From NCBI GenBank assembly GCA_945957395.1, contig CAMFKE010000004.1:62001-126000 (forward strand): a DNA stretch of 64,000 nucleotides, read 5' to 3'. Below, piece after piece: positions 1,513 through 56,748 of this stretch. Under the pieces are notes generated by a model. The model was not told the DNA's origin. It saw only the letters and a program-made list of their open reading frames with translations, and searched no databases. Numbering within the stretch: the stretch's first letter is position 1; each line of letters opens with the position of its first letter. The DNA is from an uncultured Opitutia bacterium. GTDB lineage: Bacteria > Verrucomicrobiota > Verrucomicrobiia > Opitutales > UBA953. Made by a program: the position numbers and the translations under genes.

Positions 1513-3336
1513 CTAGTCGTTCAGGCCGAACTTCTGACGCTCGTAGAGCGAGTGGTAGATGGGCGAGCTTGCCAGCAACGCCTCGTGCGTGCCGTCGGCG
1601 GCCACGCCGAGCGAGGATTTCTCGAAGACCAGGATGCGGGTGGCGAAGCGGATGGTGGAGAAACGGTGCGCGATGATCAGCACGGTCTTGCCGCGGGCGA
1701 GAAGCTCGAGCGCCTCCTGCACCTGCGCCTCCGTTTCGGAATCCAGCGCCGAGGTGGCTTCGTCGAGAACCAGGATTGGCGCATCCTTGAGGAACGCCCG
1801 GGCGATGGCGAGGCGCTGGCGCTGGCCTCCGGAGAGCAGCCCGCCGCGTTCGCCCACGGGGGTGGCGAAGCCCAGCGGCAGGGACTCGATGAAGTCGAGG
1901 GCGCCGGCCTTTCTCGCCGCCTCGCGAATCTCCTCGTCCGTGGCGTCGGGTTTGCCCAGTCGCAGGTTCGCCGCGATGGTGTCGCTGAAGAGAATGGGCT
2001 CCTGCGAAACCAGCGCGATGCGCTCGCGCAGAGCGTCCTGAGCCACCTCGCGAACATCCAGGCCGTCGACGAGCACGCGACCGGAGGTGGCGTCGTAGAA
2101 GCGCGGGACAAGGTTGGCGAAGGTGGTCTTGCCCGAGCCGGAGGGGCCCACAAGCGCGACGATTTCGCCGGGGGCGATGCGAAGGGAGAGGTTTTTGAAC
2201 AGGGGTTCCGGGTCGGACGGGTAGTTGAAGTCGACGGCGTCGAACACGATTTCGCCTCTGGCGGGGGCGGGCAGGGGCTTCGGCGACGCCGGGTCGGCCA
2301 CCTCGATGGGGGCGTTGATGATTTCCTCCAAGCGGGCGAGCGCGGCGCCGGCCTGTTTGAGTCGGTTGTTCACGCTGCCGAGTTTCTTGACCGGGTCGTA
2401 GCAGAAATAGAGGGCGCCCACCAGTCCGACGATGTCGCCTGTCTTCATCGCCACGCCAGCCGACGCGACTTGCCAGATGGCGAAGGAGATGGAGGCCGCG
2501 GCGAGGAACTCGATGGTGGGAGAGAGCGACTTCTCGTACTTCACCAGCTTCATCTGAAGGCGCAGGAAGGCTCCGGTGCGTTCGCGGTATCGCGCGATTT
2601 CCCGCTCCTGCAGGTTATAGGCGCGGATCTCCCTGGGCGCCTGCACGCTTTCGACGAGCATGGCGTTCATCGCCCCGCCTTCGGCGAGCATCTGGTTGGC
2701 TCGGCGCAGAAGCTTTTTGCTGACGAAGCTGATGGGCAGCACGGTGGCCGGGACGACGAGCAGACTGAGCATGAAGCGGTCCATGCCCGGCGTTTCCACG
2801 GCCTTGAAGGTGACGAATCCGAGGGCGAAAATCAGGGTGAACGGCTGGGTCACGAGTTCCCCGATCACATCGATAAGCGCGTATCGCACGATGGCTGCAT
2901 CCCCCGCCATGCGTTGGGAAATGTCCCCGGCGGGGATTTTGCGGAAGAAGTCCAGGTGCAGCCGTTGGAGCTTTTCGAAGACGGAAAGGCGAAGCGCCTC
3001 CAGCGTGCGCATGCCCGCCAGGTTCATCAGGTAATCCTTCCCGAATTGCGTGACGGCGCGGACGAAGAAGGTGCAAGGCAGCAGGAGGATGGCGAAGGTG
3101 AGCACATGTTCGCTGGCGATGCTCCACTCGCCCAGCCGGGTCCACTCCGGGAATTTGGCAAGCACGAGGTTCGTGCGCTCCCCCTCCGGGAAAAGCACGG
3201 GAAGGACCTTCTGGAGCATGAAGGGCAGTCCGAAGCCGGTGGCGGCCGAGTAGAGAACTCCCAGCAGCACCGCGCCTATGAGGTGAGGGACTACGGGGCG
3301 TACGAGTGGCCGGTAGGGACGAAAGGCTTTAAGCAT
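1513..3336 (-). CDS. msbA: ABC-type lipid/lipid A flippase, MsbA-like
   Basis: This is a 607-residue half-transporter with fused membrane and ATPase domains (type IV exporter). After about 330 residues of transmembrane helices comes an ATPase domain with Walker A GPSGSGKTTF, the ABC signature LSGGQRQRLAIARAF, Walker B ILVLDEATSALDSE and the switch histidine in LIIAHRFSTI. MsbA-type proteins flip lipid A-core across the inner membrane, and the two glycosyltransferase genes directly downstream fit that. The open frame extends upstream to 3444, but those residues are low-complexity and basic. I chose the ATG at 3336 (MLKAFRPYRPLVRPVVPHLI), the usual MsbA-like N-terminus. The exact lipid substrate is inferred from context. 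Confidence 0.88.
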   Translation of the reverse strand: MLKAFRPYRPLVRPVVPHLIGAVLLGVLYSAATGFGLPFMLQKVLPVLFPEGERTNLVLAKFPEWTRLGEWSIASEHVLTFAILLLPCTFFVRAVTQFGKDYLMNLAGMRTLEALRLSVFEKLQRLHLDFFRKIPAGDISQRMAGDAAIVRYALIDVIGELVTQPFTLIFALGFVTFKAVETPGMDRFMLSLLVVPATVLPISFVSKKLLRRANQMLAEGGAMNAMLVESVQAPREIRAYNLQEREIARYRERTGAFLRLQMKLVKYEKSLSPTIEFLAAASISFAIWQVASAGVAMKTGDIVGLVGALYFCYDPVKKLGSVNNRLKQAGAALARLEEIINAPIEVADPASPKPLPAPARGEIVFDAVDFNYPSDPEPLFKNLSLRIAPGEIVALVGPSGSGKTTFANLVPRFYDATSGRVLVDGLDVREVAQDALRERIALVSQEPILFSDTIAANLRLGKPDATDEEIREAARKAGALDFIESLPLGFATPVGERGGLLSGGQRQRLAIARAFLKDAPILVLDEATSALDSETEAQVQEALELLARGKTVLIIAHRFSTIRFATRILVFEKSSLGVAADGTHEALLASSPIYHSLYERQKFGLND

Positions 3337-3602
3337 GTCGGGCAGGGCGCGAAGGTGGACCTCGCCCCGGCCCCGGCAAGCCCGGGTCTGCCGCCTCGTC
3401 CGAAAAGTGCCGTCGCGGCGTGCGTTCGGGCGCTTCTGCGGCAAGGGAAGTGGCGTGCCTGATTCGGGGGCATTCCTGCGCCCGGTCGTTTTTTTTCAGG
3501 CCCGACGCGCCCGCTTTTTACGGCTCGCCCGCAGGGGCGCGGGTTGACCGAGGGCGCTCCCGCGGTTCGATGCGCCCTTCATTTCGAAAAATTTCAGTGC
3601 CC

Positions 3603-20861: not shown

Positions 20862-20942
20862 GGCCTGTTGGCGGAATGGCAGACGCAGTTGACTCAAAAT
20901 CAATCGCCGCGAGGCATGGGGGTTCGAGTCCCTCACAGGCTA
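20862..20942 (+). tRNA. tRNA-Leu (anticodon CAA)
   Basis: This is a class II tRNA with a long variable arm. The acceptor GGCCTGT pairs with ACAGGCT (20935-20941, with G1-U72 as a wobble) and the discriminator is A. T8-G9 and the GCGGAA D-region are typical of Leu tRNAs. The anticodon loop CTCAAAA gives anticodon CAA. The T loop is TTCGAGT. The encoded end is ACCCA rather than a clean CCA. The 3' half is the prophage attachment site and the intact gene is preserved on the integrase side. Confidence 0.93.
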
Positions 20943-20977
20943 CCCAATGCAAAGCCGCCCTGAAAAGGGCGGCTTTG
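20921..20977. other. attL, prophage left attachment site
   Basis: The first 45 bases (20921-20965) are identical to 56692-56736. After one mismatch (20966), eleven more bases agree. The core covers the tRNA-Leu T-loop, acceptor 3' strand and the tRNA terminator. Confidence 0.93.
20951..20976 (+). terminator. Terminator of tRNA-Leu, inside the att repeat
   Basis: A perfect 11-bp stem (20951-20961 with 20966-20976) has a GAAA loop and ends in TTT. The copy at attR (56722-56747) differs by one base at the stem closing pair. Confidence 0.75.
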
Positions 20978-21052: not shown

Positions 21053-22312
21053 ATGGGCGGTTTTGCGCCTTATTTTTGGTCACTGATGGTCACCGAAGGC
21101 ACAGCAAAAAGCACAAAGGCGCAGCCCATTGAGGCGCCCGTTTTCTACGAGTCGGGGCGGGTTAGTCCGTACCGCCTAGACTACCGCACCACCGACCCGA
21201 AGACCGGGAAGGTGAAGCGGGTGAAGCGTTTCTTCGCCAGCCGTGAGGAAGCCGTCGAGGAGTGGCGCAAGACATCGAGAACTCGGCGCGACTACGGGTT
21301 GCACGCCTTGTCCTATGACGCCGAGGCTCATCGCGAATGGATGGAGGCGAAGCGCGTCGTCGGCGCCGGGGTTTCACTCGTGGAGTGCGCTGTGTTTTGG
21401 CTTCGCCATGCCGGCGAGGTATCGGAATCGCCCGAGGTGGGCGAGGGGGTCGCGATCTTCGTTGAGGACAAGCAGGGGCAGGGGCTTTCCAAGCACCATG
21501 TCGCCGATCTCAAGTTCACTTGCGGGAGGTTCGCTGAGTTCTGCGGAAAGATCACCGTGCGCGAAGTCGATGAGGCGACGGTTCGGCGCTTCCTGTTGTC
21601 GCGGCCGGTGTCTGCGCGCTCGATACGCAACGACAAGCTTTCGCTGGCAAACTTCCTCAACTACGCGAAGCGGCGCCGGTGGCTCAAGGAGGTGCCTGAG
21701 ATTCACGCGAGCGACTTGCCCAAGGAGAAGAAGAGCCCCAAGGGCGTGCTCGCCCCTGGTGAGACGGAGCGTATGTTCGCATGGCTCGCGGAGCACAGGC
21801 CCGAGTTCATCCCGTGGGCGGCCATTCAGGCATTCGCCGGTGTACGGCATGCGGAGGCCGACCGCTTCCTGTGGGAATGGGTGGACTGCGATCACGAGCG
21901 CCTCGTGGTTCCTGCGGACATCTGCAAGACCGATGACGATTGGGTGATTCAGGGGCTTCCGCCGGCGCTGTGGAATTGGTTGCGCGAGTATCGCTCCGAG
22001 GGGGCGTTTCGCAAGCCCGACAGCAAACTGGTTTCCAAGCTGCGCCGCCGTTGGGTGGAGGGGGAGGTTATCAAGGCGTGGCCGTCCAACGCGCTGCGCC
22101 ACACCTTCTGCACGATGCACATGAGCCTGACGCAGTCGCCCGACGCCACGGCGGCGAAGATGCGCCACCAGAACACGAAACAACTCTGGCGCTCCTACTG
22201 CGCGAAGATTGTGCCGGCGAAGGTGGCGGAGGCGTATTTTGCGAGCGCCCCGGCGAAGATTTCCAAAGCGGCTTGCCGTCCTGTGCGCCCCGCGAAAAAC
22301 TTAATCGGATAA
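21053..22312 (+). CDS. int: Tyrosine-type site-specific integrase
   Basis: The 419-residue phage integrase has an N-terminal arm-type/SAM-like region (to about residue 230) and a C-terminal catalytic domain. Visible active-site elements are Arg I in AFAGVRHAEADRF, Arg II in SNALRHTFCTMHM, His in KMRHQNTKQLW and the nucleophile Tyr in WRSYCAKI. The position usually held by His in H-x-L-R is Asn here (NALR). It is adjacent to attL, as expected for a tRNA-integrating phage. An internal ATG at 21086 is a possible alternative start. Confidence 0.92.
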   Translation: MGGFAPYFWSLMVTEGTAKSTKAQPIEAPVFYESGRVSPYRLDYRTTDPKTGKVKRVKRFFASREEAVEEWRKTSRTRRDYGLHALSYDAEAHREWMEAKRVVGAGVSLVECAVFWLRHAGEVSESPEVGEGVAIFVEDKQGQGLSKHHVADLKFTCGRFAEFCGKITVREVDEATVRRFLLSRPVSARSIRNDKLSLANFLNYAKRRRWLKEVPEIHASDLPKEKKSPKGVLAPGETERMFAWLAEHRPEFIPWAAIQAFAGVRHAEADRFLWEWVDCDHERLVVPADICKTDDDWVIQGLPPALWNWLREYRSEGAFRKPDSKLVSKLRRRWVEGEVIKAWPSNALRHTFCTMHMSLTQSPDATAAKMRHQNTKQLWRSYCAKIVPAKVAEAYFASAPAKISKAACRPVRPAKNLIG

Positions 22313-43302: not shown

Positions 43303-43373
43303 CGTAGGTAAGGGCCCGGTGGCCCACCCGGCCTCATAAGCCGGTCTCGGCGGGTTCAACTCCCGCACCTGCA
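43303..43373 (+). tRNA. tRNA-like element with CAU anticodon, inside the structural operon
   Basis: A full cloverleaf can be drawn in the gap before the decoration gene: acceptor 43303-43309 with 43367-43373 (C1-A72 mismatch, one wobble), D stem 43312-43315 with 43322-43325, anticodon stem 43328-43332 with 43340-43344, loop CTCATAA (anticodon CAT at 43335-43337), and a T arm with loop TTCAACT. CCCA follows. A at position 8 instead of T and the small D loop are atypical, so it may be a divergent tRNA-Met/Ile2 or a mimic. Confidence 0.55.
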
Positions 43374-43404
43374 CCCACTCTCACCAACCCAACCCCTCCT
43401 CACC

Positions 43405-46515: not shown

Positions 46516-46739
46516 GGCTCGGCTTCGCGCTGTCCCTCATCGGATGCGTCTCCGAAGCCGGGATACCTTACGCCGACGCACTCGACACCGTCCCGCTCGC
46601 CCAGCTCTTTGCCGTCGCCGCCGTCGTTCACCGCAACAACGGCGGCAAGTTCGATGACCTCGACTACGGTGAGCGCGACACCTTCGCCGCTCTTCCGGAA
46701 AACCCAAGCATTCCTCCCACATGGCCGACACCAAGCTGA
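46494..46739 (+). CDS. Frameshifted extension of the tail chaperone (T-like part of GT)
   Basis: This frame has no start codon of its own and is in -1 relative to the chaperone. It reads GVSFGVGLGFALSLIGCVSE, AGIPYADALDTVPLAQLFAV and AAVVHRNNGGKFDDLDY, then stops at 46737-46739, 19 bases into the tape-measure gene. A GGGGG run at 46494-46498 allows a -1 slip (GGG to GGG). The expected product is the N-terminal 119 residues of the chaperone joined to about 81 residues. A -1 frameshift at this position is the rule in tailed phages. Confidence 0.68.
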   Translation, partial: GGVSFGVGLGFALSLIGCVSEAGIPYADALDTVPLAQLFAVAAVVHRNNGGKFDDLDYGERDTFAALPENPSIPPTWPTPS

Positions 46740-48172
46740 ACATCGTCATAGCTGCCAAGGACGGTGCCTCCTCCGCGCTCTCCGGCGTCGCCGCCAGGCT
46801 CGGTTCAGTCGTCGCCGCGGCGCGCAGGGCCGGTGATGGACTTGGCTCCGGTCTGCTTCGCGGTGTCACCTCCATGCCCGCGCAGCTCGCCGCGCTCTCC
46901 GGCGGCGCGCTCACCCTCGGCGCGGCGTTCGCCACCGCCAAGGCGTCCGTCGAAAAGGCCTCGGAGTTCGAAGACATCCGTACCAGCTTCATCACGCTCC
47001 TCGGTTCCACCGACGCTGCGCAAAAGCGCATGGACGAGCTCTCGAAGTTCGCCGCATCCACCCCCTTCGACATCCCGGGCGTGGCGCGTGCTTCGAAGAC
47101 CCTCGAAACCCTCACGCGCGGTGCGCTTTCCACCGGCCCCGGCCTCACGCTCGTGGGCGATGTGGCTGCCTCCACCGGCGTGCAGTTCGACGAGATGGCC
47201 GTCACCATCGGCCGCGCTTATGACGGCATCGCCTCGGGCCGTGCCGTCGGGGAATCGCTCATGCGCCTCCAGGAACTCGGGGCGCTCTCCGGCGACGCCC
47301 GTGGTAAAATCGAGTCCATGCAGGCCGCCGGCCAGAAGGGCGCCGCCGTGTGGTCCGTCATGTCCGGCGAGCTCGCACGCTTCGGTGGCGAAATGGACCG
47401 CCGCTCCGGCACCTTCTCGGGCAAAATGTCCAACATGAAGGACAACTGGGATTCCCTCCTGCGCGCCTTCGGCGAGCCCGTGATGGACTCCCTCAAGCCC
47501 TTCCTCGATGATCTCGGCGCTTGGTTCGAGAAGCTCAAGCCCGCCGCCGTCGAGTTCGGCAACACCGTCTCCGGCGCCATAGACCTTGTGCGCGCCGCCT
47601 TCGCCGACTCTTCCCTCTGGAGCAAGGCCCTGGCCACGCTGTCCGCCGTGGGCTCCACCGCCGCGCTCGTCATCGGAAACCATATCGGCAACTCTCTCAA
47701 GGCCGCCGCCGCCATGTTCGCCGGCGCCCTCATCGCCGCCGCCAAGTCCGCGGGCAATGTGCTCTCGGGCGGCGACGCCAACTACGCCGACGAGTTCGCC
47801 GCCGCCACCGACTCCATGGGCAAGGCGCTGGAAATCGATACCTCCGGAGCCGCCACCGACTTTGCCCTCATCCTCAAGAGCGAGCTGCACGACATTTGGG
47901 GCGACCTGCCGGAGCGCGTCGCCAAGCCATCCGAGACCGTCAACAAGGCCACTCCGTCCAGTTCCGACACAGCCAAGCAGTTCTCCCCCAAGGCGTTAGG
48001 CTCCTCCGGGGACGACCTGGCCAAGGTCGGCATCTTCGCCGGTGGCGCGGCCGGCGCGATGAACTATGCCAGGCGCACGGCGGATGCCTCCGAGCGCATG
48101 GCCAAATCCCTGGGTGTGCTCGAGCGCAACATCAGCGCAGGGCCACGCACCTATTCCCCCTCCTGGGGATAA
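46721..48172 (+). CDS. Tape measure protein
   Basis: The 483-residue protein starts MADTKLNIVIAAKDGASSAL. It has helical repeats and a segment common in tape-measure proteins (FEDIRTSFITLLGSTDAAQK, RMDELSKFAASTPFDIPGVA, GALSGDARGKIESMQAAGQK, GTFSGKMSNMKDNWDSLLRA). Hydrophobic Ala/Gly stretches follow. Tape-measure length sets tail length; 483 residues suggests a short to medium tail (roughly 70 nm at 0.15 nm per residue). A terminator follows. Confidence 0.85.
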   Translation: MADTKLNIVIAAKDGASSALSGVAARLGSVVAAARRAGDGLGSGLLRGVTSMPAQLAALSGGALTLGAAFATAKASVEKASEFEDIRTSFITLLGSTDAAQKRMDELSKFAASTPFDIPGVARASKTLETLTRGALSTGPGLTLVGDVAASTGVQFDEMAVTIGRAYDGIASGRAVGESLMRLQELGALSGDARGKIESMQAAGQKGAAVWSVMSGELARFGGEMDRRSGTFSGKMSNMKDNWDSLLRAFGEPVMDSLKPFLDDLGAWFEKLKPAAVEFGNTVSGAIDLVRAAFADSSLWSKALATLSAVGSTAALVIGNHIGNSLKAAAAMFAGALIAAAKSAGNVLSGGDANYADEFAAATDSMGKALEIDTSGAATDFALILKSELHDIWGDLPERVAKPSETVNKATPSSSDTAKQFSPKALGSSGDDLAKVGIFAGGAAGAMNYARRTADASERMAKSLGVLERNISAGPRTYSPSWG

Positions 48173-50701: not shown

Positions 50702-50815
50702 ATGTGGCGCATCGGGTTCGCGCGTGAGCGCGTCCCGCTTCGCCATCTCTCGTCAGCGCACAACATCGGCGCGTGGTTGTTCGGCGTGAGCGCAGGCTTT
50801 GTTGATCCGGTGTGA
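50702..50815 (+). CDS. Short (37-residue) tail-region protein
   Basis: The frame encodes MWRIGFARERVPLRHLSSAH followed by NIGAWLFGVSAGFVDPV. Its TGA overlaps the GTG start of the glycosyltransferase-like gene (GTGA), the same coupling seen at other joints of this module, and it fills an otherwise empty gap. Too short for family assignment. Confidence 0.4.
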   Translation: MWRIGFARERVPLRHLSSAHNIGAWLFGVSAGFVDPV

Positions 50816-51435
50816 TTCCCGCCGTCATCTTCACTTCCTCCGCTCACTCCTCCTGCGCCGATCTGGCCGCCGAAAGGCTCGCCGCCCTCGGCGTGTCTCC
50901 CATTCTCGTCTTCGACCGAGACGACCCTCCTCCTGTTCCGCCGCAGCACCCTTTCGAGTTCTCCGATTTCCACCGCGGCGGAAACCTGCGCGGCGGCCTG
51001 TGTCTCGCCGGCATGCTCGACGCTCTCGCTCGCGCACAGGGTGCTTCCCAGGTCGTGCTCAAGGTGGATGCCGATGTTTTCTTGCTTTCCTCCTCCACTC
51101 TCGCCGGGCCCGTTGTCGCCGGAGCTGCCTCCCTCGTCGGGTTCTCCGACCACTCCGGACGCATGCGCGGAGCCGCATACGCGCTCGACGCCGCATCCCT
51201 GTCCTCGTCCGTTCGCCACGAGTGCCTCTCTCGCACCTCCGAAGCCTACCTTGAAGCCCGGCTGCTGCATGCCCTGGCGCGTTCCTCCGGGTTTCATGCT
51301 TCGCTGCTCCCGCGTGCTCTCTGCGAGTACGGTGCCGAGCGCACTGAGAGCACTGTCGCCATCCACTGCGGCCTCGCCGAGTGCCCTCAATCCGCGATGC
51401 GCTCACTCTTCTTGCGTTTCGTCACCCCTCGTTAA
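50812..51435 (+). CDS. Glycosyltransferase-like protein in the tail module
   Basis: The product has 207 residues from a GTG start (IPAVIFTSSAHSSCADLAAE). The segment VVLKVDADVFLLS has a DxD motif (Asp 86 and Asp 88), and GNLRGGLCLAGMLDALA plus a Ser/Ala-rich body follow. The layout resembles small GT-A sugar-transfer enzymes. It sits between tail-tip genes and the fibre, so it may modify the fibre or a host glycan (lysogenic conversion). The assignment rests on the DxD and strand pattern only. Confidence 0.5.
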   Translation: MIPAVIFTSSAHSSCADLAAERLAALGVSPILVFDRDDPPPVPPQHPFEFSDFHRGGNLRGGLCLAGMLDALARAQGASQVVLKVDADVFLLSSSTLAGPVVAGAASLVGFSDHSGRMRGAAYALDAASLSSSVRHECLSRTSEAYLEARLLHALARSSGFHASLLPRALCEYGAERTESTVAIHCGLAECPQSAMRSLFLRFVTPR

Positions 51436-51480: not shown

Positions 51481-53979
51481 ATGCCGACCCCGCTCGCCTT
51501 AGACCTGTTCCTGGATACCACCGGGCCTTTATCCCCGGCCCGTTATCTCGTTTCTCGGTCCTCGCAGCAGTCCGCTCAAACGCTGGCGCTCGTCACCGGA
51601 GATGCTCCTGTCGTACGCCTGTTCCTGCTCAAGCCGTCGGTCACAGTAGGCCAGCCCGCCGAATGCCTCACGCACTCGGGCGCCATCACCTTCTCCCTCA
51701 AGGCTGCGCACTCCGACACCGATGCCCTCGCGCAGACAGGCGCATTCACCCTCGTCACTTCCGAGGCAGAAGGCGACCACTACGAGGCCATACTCGACCT
51801 CAACACCGCCAATATGCTGGCCAAGGTCGCCACACTCGACTCAGGCCTGGCCTCCTTCCGCGCCTTTTTCGACGTCGAACTTCAGGCCCCTTCCAACATC
51901 AAGCGCGTCACCTATCAGGCCACGGCAAACGTCTTCCTTCAGATTTACAACTCCGGACCCGACCCCGCCGCGCTGCCCTCTTACCCTGCGCCGAAACTCA
52001 TCGCCCTAAAGTCCGACCTGGCCGCCGCACAAGGCGGAATCGTCGTCGCCAACGACTGGCGAAACGGCACCTGGTCTATCGGAGGCCCAGAGGCTCCGTT
52101 TTACCCCTTCACGCTCACCGACGGACTCCCGACCTCCATCGGGTACCCCTCCCTAAGCGACCCCATTCATGGCGCATGGATGCCCATACCCACATGGGCC
52201 GACTCCGTCACAATCGCCGGCAACCTCTCCGACATCACCACCTCCGGCATCGACGCCTACATCGGCTTCGCCGACTCCTCCACGGGTCAGGCCGTCGAGC
52301 TGTCGCCCGGCGATGGCGGCTACAACCCGGCACTCAAAGTCACCTTCGGCGCGCCCTTCAACTTCACCGTGGACCGCCCGGGATCAGCCGACGCCCTCGT
52401 CCTGCGCGTCTCCGGAGCCTCCGCTTTCGCCTCAGGGTTCGCCTCCTTCTCGCTGCGCGCCCAGTCTTCCCGCGCCACCACCAACGGGCGCGGGGTGGTC
52501 GAGCTGGCCACTGACTCCGAAGCCATCGCCGGAACGGACGCCGAGCGCGCGGTGACGCCCGCCGCGCTGAAGGCCGCTCTGCTCGCCGGAGGAGCGACCG
52601 TGCCTGACGCCACCACCGCGACCAAGGGGAAGGTGCGACTGGCCACGGAGGCCGAGGCCTCCGACGGCGCTTCCGATTCCATTGCCGTAACGCCTCGCGC
52701 TCTGCAGTTCAGGGTGGACCAGTGGGCCGACCCGTTCAGCTCGCAATACGGCCTCATACGCCGGGCGAGCGACATGGAAGTGCTCGGCATGGATTTCTCC
52801 GCCGACACCCAGGCTGCGGCGCTCACCCTCGGCAACCTGCAATATGGCGGCATTGACCTGATTTCGGACAGCGCACTCCTTACCCTCGGGCGCGCTGTAG
52901 TGCTCCAATCTGGCCAGCTTGTCCTCGAAGGCGGAGGGGGCGCGCCCGCCGGACTTGGGTGGATTCCTGGCTCAGGCTGGGACGCAATCGGCCTGTACTC
53001 GAACGACTCGAACGAGGTGCGCGTGCGCGCCAACCCGTCGAGCCGCGTCTACATCAACGCCTCCGAGTACATGCATGCCGGCTGCGGCATCGATGTGCGC
53101 ACCAATAGCGTGTCCATCGGAGGTGGGGACCCCTACGCCACCCCTGCGTTTCGGTATACGGAGGTCATGGGCGATGGTTACATGCTCATCGACAGCGCTA
53201 CGGAGACCACCGTGCGCTCCGCCGGTTCCCTCAAAGTCCTTAGCGGCATAGAGTCGCCGCTCATCTCCATTCTGCCGCTCCCGGCCGCCGTCGGCGATTG
53301 GGAGTCTTCGCTCTATCTCTTCGGCACGGTGCCTCACCTCAAGTTCGGACGCGGCGGAAGCATCTACGATGTCGAGCTTGGCGTGAACGCCGACTGGTCC
53401 GCCGTGAGCGGCCAGGCGAAGATACTGAACAAGCCGACGCTCGCCGCGGTGGCGACGAGCGGCAGCTACGCCGACCTGACGAACAAGCCCGTGTTGAACG
53501 ACATCTCGGGTGCCGGAACCAAGGTGACCGGCAGCGACGGAAGCGTGCGGTTCGGCGTGGCGGCGGCCATCGGCGGCGCCGGGTTGGATTCTGACGGGCT
53601 GAGCGCGTTCACCGTGGGGGCGGACAATCTTCCGCGGTACAATTTCCGCATGGGAGGCGTGACCTACGGCGTCCCCATTGGAGGGGGCGTCGGCCGCATC
53701 ATCACGGTATCCGGAACCGCCTACACCATCACTCAGGCCGATGCCGGTGCGACGCTGGTCCTGACGAACGCGGGGGTGTGCGCGCTGACCGTGCAGGACT
53801 TCGGTCTGGGAAATTGGGTCAACATCCGGCGGGCGGGCGGTGCGCCGAGCTTTGCGGTGTCAGGTGTCACCCTGAACTGGAGCGGCTGGAGCGGGCTCAC
53901 GACCGTGAGCGCCGGCGGCAGTGTGACGCTATCGCGTGTCACGGGCACGACCTGCGACATCACGGGGAACATGGCATGA
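51481..53979 (+). CDS. Tail fibre protein
   Basis: The 832-residue protein has an N-terminal beta-rich shaft-attachment domain (to about 330). Two tail-fibre repeats follow (GVVELATDSEAIAGTDAERA, VTPAALKAALLA and GKVRLATEAEASDGASDSIA, VTPRALQ). The trimerisation-type repeat KILNKPTLAAVATSGSYADL, TNKPVLND and a C-terminal beta-sandwich come next. Such repeats are typical of host-binding fibres. Its stop overlaps the next start, so the following beta-repeat protein is co-translated, perhaps as a fibre partner. Confidence 0.82.
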   Translation: MPTPLALDLFLDTTGPLSPARYLVSRSSQQSAQTLALVTGDAPVVRLFLLKPSVTVGQPAECLTHSGAITFSLKAAHSDTDALAQTGAFTLVTSEAEGDHYEAILDLNTANMLAKVATLDSGLASFRAFFDVELQAPSNIKRVTYQATANVFLQIYNSGPDPAALPSYPAPKLIALKSDLAAAQGGIVVANDWRNGTWSIGGPEAPFYPFTLTDGLPTSIGYPSLSDPIHGAWMPIPTWADSVTIAGNLSDITTSGIDAYIGFADSSTGQAVELSPGDGGYNPALKVTFGAPFNFTVDRPGSADALVLRVSGASAFASGFASFSLRAQSSRATTNGRGVVELATDSEAIAGTDAERAVTPAALKAALLAGGATVPDATTATKGKVRLATEAEASDGASDSIAVTPRALQFRVDQWADPFSSQYGLIRRASDMEVLGMDFSADTQAAALTLGNLQYGGIDLISDSALLTLGRAVVLQSGQLVLEGGGGAPAGLGWIPGSGWDAIGLYSNDSNEVRVRANPSSRVYINASEYMHAGCGIDVRTNSVSIGGGDPYATPAFRYTEVMGDGYMLIDSATETTVRSAGSLKVLSGIESPLISILPLPAAVGDWESSLYLFGTVPHLKFGRGGSIYDVELGVNADWSAVSGQAKILNKPTLAAVATSGSYADLTNKPVLNDISGAGTKVTGSDGSVRFGVAAAIGGAGLDSDGLSAFTVGADNLPRYNFRMGGVTYGVPIGGGVGRIITVSGTAYTITQADAGATLVLTNAGVCALTVQDFGLGNWVNIRRAGGAPSFAVSGVTLNWSGWSGLTTVSAGGSVTLSRVTGTTCDITGNMA

Positions 53980-54863
53980 TCGAGTTTCAGACGCCCTTCC
54001 CGGCACCCGCCACGCAGGCCATATCGGCCGCGCTGGGCGGCGGCAACTCGCTCGTCTGGGCCGCGCCAGGAAAGACGCTCACGCTGGCCGGCACCAACAC
54101 CTTCTCCGGCACCTTGCGCGTGATTGACGGCACCGTCGCCGGCACGACCAAGGCCAACTTCGGGGCCGGCCCGATTGCCATCGCTGCGTCCGGAACTGTG
54201 GCGATAAACAACAGCGCGACGCAGACGTTTTCGACGGGCATCTCCGGGAGCGGGACTTTTTCGAAGAGCGGGGCCGGGGTGACGATCATCGCCGGCACCA
54301 ACAGTTTTTCGGGTAAGTACGCGTTCACCGGGGGCGACTGCGTGTTCCAGGGGAGCGTCAACGCGGCGCAGGGTAAGCCAAGGCTGGAGTTGACGACCGG
54401 AAAGCTGCTCATCGCGCAGGCGTATGTCGGTCAGGATCTGACTTTCTCCGAAATCGCCAGCACCGGGACCTCGACGGTCAACACCGCATACGAGGCAGCG
54501 ACCGGCGTGCGCACGCTGCATGCCGAGCAGGCGACAAACACGACATTCAATGCCGTCATGTCCGACGCGTCGGGCTCGCGCCTGCTGGCGCTCAAGAAGT
54601 CCGGCGCCGGCACGCTTACGCTCACCGGCGCGAACACGCACACCGGAGGCGTCACCGTCAACGGCGGCACGCTCGTCTCCGGAAGCGCCACCGCGCTGGG
54701 CACCGGTGCTGTTACGGTCAACTCCGGCGGCACGCTCACCTTCTCGGTCAACGCCACCGGCACGCGCACCGTCACAGTCAATGCCGGCGGCGTGGTAAAC
54801 CGAGGCGGATTTGCCCACACCGGTACAAGCTTCGTGAACAACGGCGGCACCATCAACGCGTAG
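53976..54863 (+). CDS. Autotransporter-type beta-strand repeat protein in the tail module
   Basis: The 295-residue protein consists almost wholly of beta-helix-like repeats: TLTLAGTNTFSGTLRVIDGT, ISGSGTFSKSGAGVTIIAGT, and KSGAGTLTLTGANTHTGGVT followed by VNGGTLVSGSATALGTGAVT. The last is the classic autotransporter-associated beta-strand (PATR) repeat. There is no signal peptide, no C-terminal beta-barrel and no PEP-CTERM sorting tail, so it is not a standard secreted passenger. Coupled to the fibre gene by a 4-base overlap, it is likely a virion-surface or tailspike-like protein derived from host sequence (inference). Confidence 0.72.
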   Translation: MIEFQTPFPAPATQAISAALGGGNSLVWAAPGKTLTLAGTNTFSGTLRVIDGTVAGTTKANFGAGPIAIAASGTVAINNSATQTFSTGISGSGTFSKSGAGVTIIAGTNSFSGKYAFTGGDCVFQGSVNAAQGKPRLELTTGKLLIAQAYVGQDLTFSEIASTGTSTVNTAYEAATGVRTLHAEQATNTTFNAVMSDASGSRLLALKKSGAGTLTLTGANTHTGGVTVNGGTLVSGSATALGTGAVTVNSGGTLTFSVNATGTRTVTVNAGGVVNRGGFAHTGTSFVNNGGTINA

Positions 54864-54898
54864 AATTTTCCCCCAACCACCAACCAACACCCCCACCC

Positions 54899-56691: not shown

Positions 56692-56748
56692 GGTTCGAGT
56701 CCCTCACAGGCTACCCAATGCAAAGCCGCCCTGAAAGGGGCGGCTTTG
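56692..56748. other. attR, prophage right attachment site
   Basis: This is the second copy of the att repeat: 45 identical bases (56692-56736), one mismatch, then 11 identical. It contains the tRNA-Leu 3' end without the rest of the tRNA, plus the duplicated terminator hairpin (56722-56747). Confidence 0.93.

Follow-up and report, generated by a model that had tools for sequence, protein, structure and literature searches.

How does a protein related to exported bacterial adhesins come to be encoded in the tail operon of a phage, and what does it do there? The question is raised by P0001, a protein with autotransporter-type beta-strand (PATR) repeats that is encoded directly after the tail fibre of a prophage, in a 64,000-nucleotide stretch (the window) of the genome of an uncultured Opitutia bacterium. 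The first-pass annotation had proposed that the phage captured a host surface-protein fold as a tail component. Comparison supports this proposal through homology to host modules, a natural swap of the fibre-tip cassette and recurrence of PATR genes in virion-gene clusters, and the presence of P0001 in the virion would follow from this context. P0001 is probably a fibre-tip adhesin with a host-derived solenoid core that is swapped as a cassette with the fibre C-terminus.

The prophage is 35.8 kb in length and is integrated at a tRNA-Leu gene. Between its att repeats (Table 1) are encoded a portal, a head protease, a major head protein, a head-tail adaptor, the tape measure and further tail ORFs, and the order at the right end is fibre, PATR ORF, 137-aa ORF and small end genes. 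This gene order therefore places the PATR ORF in the late tail region. Within the structural operon, ARAGORN detects a tRNA-Met (cat) at 43303-43377 (+), where it separates the head protease ORF from the head ORF that follows.

Table 1. Features of the prophage and of its fibre-tip cassette, in window coordinates.
Feature	Position	Strand	Basis
attL, 57-nt direct repeat that starts in the 3' end of tRNA-Leu (20862-20944)	20921..20977	+	
Integrase, just inside the att repeat	21053..22312	+	phrog_1 E 8.7e-23
Tape measure, same tail operon	46721..48172	+	phrog_9959 E 1.3e-16, PF20155 E 1.8e-9
Tail fibre, 832 aa	51481..53979	+	phrog_910 E 1.5e-19; PDB matches
Fibre shaft DNA common to the window and L031, 1,002 bp, 99.8% identity	52488..53489	+	blastn, junctions
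Exchangeable tip cassette (fibre C-terminus and PATR gene)	53490..54892	+	DNA alignment with L031
ATGA in which the fibre stop and the PATR start overlap	53976..53979	+	sequence
P0001 (295 aa), PATR protein with a predicted beta-solenoid fold, proposed as a fibre-tip adhesin	53976..54863	+	PF12951, TIGR02601; AlphaFold2 model pLDDT 85.8, pTM 0.82
Host-like passenger module, P0001 residues 15-255	54018..54740	+	identity to four host modules
C-terminal cap, P0001 residues 259-295, common to phage L009	54750..54860	+	37-residue end nearly identical
137-aa gene flanking the cassette; 414 bp, 99.3% identical in L031	54899..55312	+	
attR, the other copy of the 57-nt direct repeat (98%)	56692..56748	+	

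The 832-aa ORF is assigned as the tail fibre because it matches phrog_910, a family of tail collar fibres, and because, over residues ~325-443, it has PDB matches to chains of T4-type gp12 and of the long-tail-fibre proximal part. The fibre and its tip had no relatives when used as queries in IMG/VR, and among 388 genomes of the phylum the tip was matched only in the window's own genome. Structure prediction for the fibre C-terminus reached a pLDDT of 35 and gave no fold. The ATG of P0001 sits within ...AACATGGCATGA..., and the sequence confirms the 4-base overlap with the fibre gene that had been reported at first reading. Between 53500 and 56800 there is no promoter-like site and no terminator-like site on the + strand, and the fibre and PATR genes are likely to be translationally coupled through the ATGA. 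Directly upstream of the fibre, a 207-aa ORF (50812-51435, +) matches a 239-aa ORF of another prophage (L032) at E 4e-8 over 78 residues, and the latter adjoins a weakly GT25-like ORF (E 0.0018). The window ORF has no Pfam match; it is possibly a phage glycosyltransferase acting on the fibre or tip.

P0001 is a member of the PATR family, with scores well above the curated cut-offs and above chance for both Pfam PF12951 (E 1.4e-12; 47.9 bits, cut-off 27; three stretches) and NCBIfam TIGR02601 (E 5.6e-12; 45.2 bits, cut-off 19.85). The earlier description of a 295-residue protein made of PATR-like repeats is thus right for these three stretches and too broad for the whole protein, as about 90 residues (~115-205) form a non-PATR insert typical of the host lineage, placed between PATR-like stretches, and the last ~37 residues form a separate cap distinct from PATR. 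Its other claim, that signal peptide, barrel and sorting tail are missing, agrees with our searches: in Pfam there is no match to an autotransporter barrel (the C-terminal beta-barrel translocator), the ORF terminating in the cap, and none to a PEP-CTERM motif, while crude hydropathy gives no signal peptide (maximum 10-residue mean 1.0, with no K/R preceding). PATR is the sole Pfam family above cut-off, with no match to a tail-fibre-assembly (Tfa) family; in PHROGs there is only a weak tail-fibre match, and a tblastn search of 50,697 phage records gave none. Only 9 of the 295 residues are Asp or Glu, so that the protein has no obvious glycosidase site. A depolymerase identity is not favoured, as acidic residues are few and a lyase or hydrolase match is absent.

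The AlphaFold2 model of P0001, computed from an alignment of the window and fetched loci only, is all beta, with a mean pLDDT and a pTM as listed in Table 1. In VIA, the model aligns with a metagenomic beta-helix (Z 18.8, rmsd 2.8, 234 aligned), pertactin (Z 15.8, rmsd 4.1, 279 aligned), the self-associating bacterial protein 4kh3 (Z 14.2), antigen 43 entries (Z 13.5-13.9) and the P22 tailspike 2xc1 (Z 12.6, rmsd 4.3, 264 aligned). Foldseek searches of the PDB and BFVD gave no match at E <= 0.001. The model clearly predicts a right-handed beta-solenoid, a class of fold that by itself can neither separate an adhesin from a spike nor decide function.

The core of this solenoid groups with passenger modules of the host. 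The host genome has 136 PATR matches, and residues ~15-280 of P0001 align with particular modules of four proteins from the host, which are 935 to ~3,600 residues long, P0001 starting at a solenoid module boundary. Over residues 15-255, identity to the four host modules is 41-46%, and the host modules are 44-78% identical among themselves. Two of the four homologues (L034 and L035) end in PEP-CTERM, and one ends, as judged by eye, in a barrel-like YEYRF. A profile of the inter-PATR insert, which was built from these very sequences and hence leans towards them, matches 10 times in this genome, and its matches in the rest of the phylum are weaker and confined to 7 of 387 genomes. In a quick tree, P0001 groups with host and same-family modules, with weak support (SH-aLRT 81). 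Capture of the P0001 core from the host lineage is the simplest reading of these similarities, with transfer probably from host to phage.

The strongest evidence that P0001 is a tip component comes from a natural swap between the window and a second prophage of the same genome. Used as a query, the fibre identified a second fibre on contig C2 (region L031). Between the conserved blocks formed by the fibre shaft and the 137-aa gene, the window has a fibre tip of ~162 residues followed by the PATR gene, and L031 has a fibre tip of ~435 residues and no PATR gene; no PATR match occurs within about 98 kb of the second fibre. On its 5' side the cassette begins directly past the LTNKP codons, and on its 3' side it extends to where the 137-aa gene starts, so the borders of the swap are domain and gene borders. 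The swap therefore indicates that the PATR gene travels with the fibre tip, as expected for a tip component. With tblastn matches for four late ORFs of the window only, the two prophages are otherwise different. All they have in common, in differing order, is the fibre shaft, the 137-aa gene and a pair of tail ORFs (88-95% protein identity), clearly a mosaic exchange of tail genes inside a single genome.

The end of P0001 leads to another phage. On an unrelated 87-kb IMG/VR contig (L009), a 592-aa protein closes a cluster of tail and lectin-like genes, and over its C-terminal 85 residues it has 67% identity to P0001, with the last ~37 almost identical and both proteins terminating at ...VNNGGTINA. 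A profile of the cap searched in IMG/VR and GTDB genomes found this end in L009 only, along with four weak PATR matches in bacterial contigs. In addition, an 847-aa protein of L009 matches the alternative fibre tip of L031 (37% over 423 aa, E 1e-73). Both alternative tip modules therefore have relatives in one other phage.

Three scans of IMG/VR revealed 26 further contigs with PATR proteins, of which about 21, several of them closely related, appear to be of phage type, lacking export or anchoring signals, as assigned by inspection of ends, crude hydropathy and neighbours. Four (L059, L063, L068, L075) were excluded as ordinary exported proteins (autotransporter or PEP-CTERM) or host-like regions on viral contigs, and L070 was counted in neither group. 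In 12 of 17 representatives, the PATR ORF starts at most 17 bases from the upstream gene or overlaps it, and in L074, L062, L069 and L072 it overlaps an upstream tail-region gene by 1-4 bases. L074 repeats the order of the window, with a tape measure, two ORFs, a 361-aa PATR ORF (one-base overlap) and then a sheath-like gene. Neighbouring genes match tail-fibre, baseplate-wedge, head (capsid), tape-measure and tail-tip families, and the phage PATR proteins without export signals lie mostly in clusters of virion genes. The PATR proteins of these other phages reach 1,684 aa. Nine contigs (L042, L044, L045, L046, L057, L062, L065, L069, L072) encode long PATR proteins whose C-termini show a motif like FFPGxTxxxYxxVxLxGAxGRTxxYxxxxSTLTIS, which may be an end domain common to them.

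Related fibres in two genomes of the same bacterial family (L032 and L033) are followed by other genes, with no PATR gene, which counts against the tip-adhesin reading; what follows the fibre is variable. The next large ORF downstream of the L032 fibre (2362-3504, -; 380 aa) carries YadA-head repeats (PF05658, E 1.5e-5), placing a trimeric-autotransporter module in a comparable slot.

Among characterized tails, the closest parallel in arrangement is the gp38 of T2-, S16- and PP01-type phages. The gene for T2/S16-type gp38 directly follows the fibre gene. The protein sits at the end of the fibre trimer as a polypeptide of its own and sets receptor specificity (PMC12892980). Likewise, the gene for P0001 is separate, lies directly after the fibre gene and is swapped with the fibre tip; however, gp38 is a lattice of poly-glycine type II helices, whereas P0001 is a predicted PATR beta-solenoid related to host adhesins, and the two appear similar in arrangement without homology. 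PATR repeats on a right-handed beta-solenoid are also found in autotransporter passengers (IcsA, Ssp, ShdA) and in the PEP-CTERM PATR proteins of the host, but P0001 differs from both in lacking signal peptide, barrel and sorting tail, in its place in a prophage tail operon and in its phage-specific cap. In autotransporters, PATR motifs promote efficient passenger secretion (Doyle et al. 2015, as cited in PMC9977779); since there is nothing to export, PATR in P0001 may be only a stable solenoid element. Tailspikes of the P22/HK620 type belong to the same right-handed beta-solenoid class, but P0001 does not look like a free-standing spike that brings along a head-binding domain, and it has no obvious glycosidase site. 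Similar repeats occur in phage proteins under two automatic names, the "tail fiber protein proximal subunit" of phrog_15824 and the "Autotransporter-associated beta strand repeat" of BFVD A0A6J5M3L0 (uncultured Caudovirales phage), matched by P0001 at E 6.8e-5, by the L042 protein at E 7e-15 and in Foldseek at E 1.6e-3. In the literature searched, no paper was found on either entry, nor anything on PATR or autotransporter repeats in phage tails.

Other roles for P0001 can be weighed against this evidence. Were the gene lysogenic-conversion cargo, the lysogen would display an extra adhesin or mask a receptor; the core is indeed homologous to exported host surface proteins, and the gene is close to the prophage's right end, where cargo genes are often sited. 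This role is nevertheless rather improbable, as the protein has no signal peptide, barrel or PEP-CTERM, and its gene overlaps the fibre gene with no promoter-like site and is swapped along with the fibre tip. A split or decaying C-terminal part of a longer former fibre, without function, would account for the overlap, which could stem from the split of a fused gene, and for the missing PATR gene in the second prophage. We consider it very unlikely given an ORF that is intact from a module boundary to a C-terminus exactly conserved with L009, a confident compact model and the recurrence of 1-4-base overlaps between PATR ORFs and upstream tail-region genes in four other phages.

Fibre chaperones are often encoded directly behind the fibre gene and vary in step with the C-terminus of the fibre. 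P0001 could be imagined to aid trimerisation of the tip and then leave, in the manner of Tfa or of T4 gp38, a chaperone that is released once assembly is done (PMC12892980). A chaperone of this kind is unlikely here, with PATR as the sole Pfam family above cut-off, no tail-fibre-assembly family and homology to long adhesin passengers, and a protein of up to 1,684 aa, the size reached in other phages, is implausible as a transient chaperone. Between chaperone and tip adhesin we favour the latter, given the great length of PATR proteins in other phages and the adhesin-type passenger that makes up the core of P0001.

As a fibre-tip adhesin, P0001 would have its core from the passenger of a host surface protein of autotransporter or PEP-CTERM type, with the export and anchoring parts left out. 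Fibre and PATR genes would be translated together via the ATGA overlap, and P0001 would fold in the cytoplasm as a single right-handed beta-solenoid closed by the phage-specific end piece of ~37 residues. The fibre trimer's own C-terminal domain of about 162 residues probably holds it. Fibre C-terminus and P0001 together make up one exchangeable cassette. At the tip, in contact with the fibre, P0001 would present its surface to the next host cell and bind a receptor there; the position of its gene makes a part in host recognition a reasonable supposition. Nothing specific speaks for glycan binding, which had been suggested initially. It is also conceivable, though doubtful and argued by analogy, that recognition is like-with-like, P0001 docking onto the many host surface proteins that bear the same module, as antigen 43 self-associates. 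If so, the host adhesin family would be both source and receptor for the phage.

To our knowledge, few receptor-binding parts are known for the phages that infect Verrucomicrobia-type bacteria. P0001 is a concrete receptor-binding candidate with a natural control, as two prophages in one genome carry the same shaft and different tips. What would be new here is a module at the fibre tip made out of an adhesin solenoid of the host, and it becomes directly testable whether a tail tip arose from a host adhesin and whether recognition is like-with-like. More broadly, these findings suggest that phages have more than once turned host beta-solenoids of autotransporter type, minus the parts needed for export, into tail adhesins.
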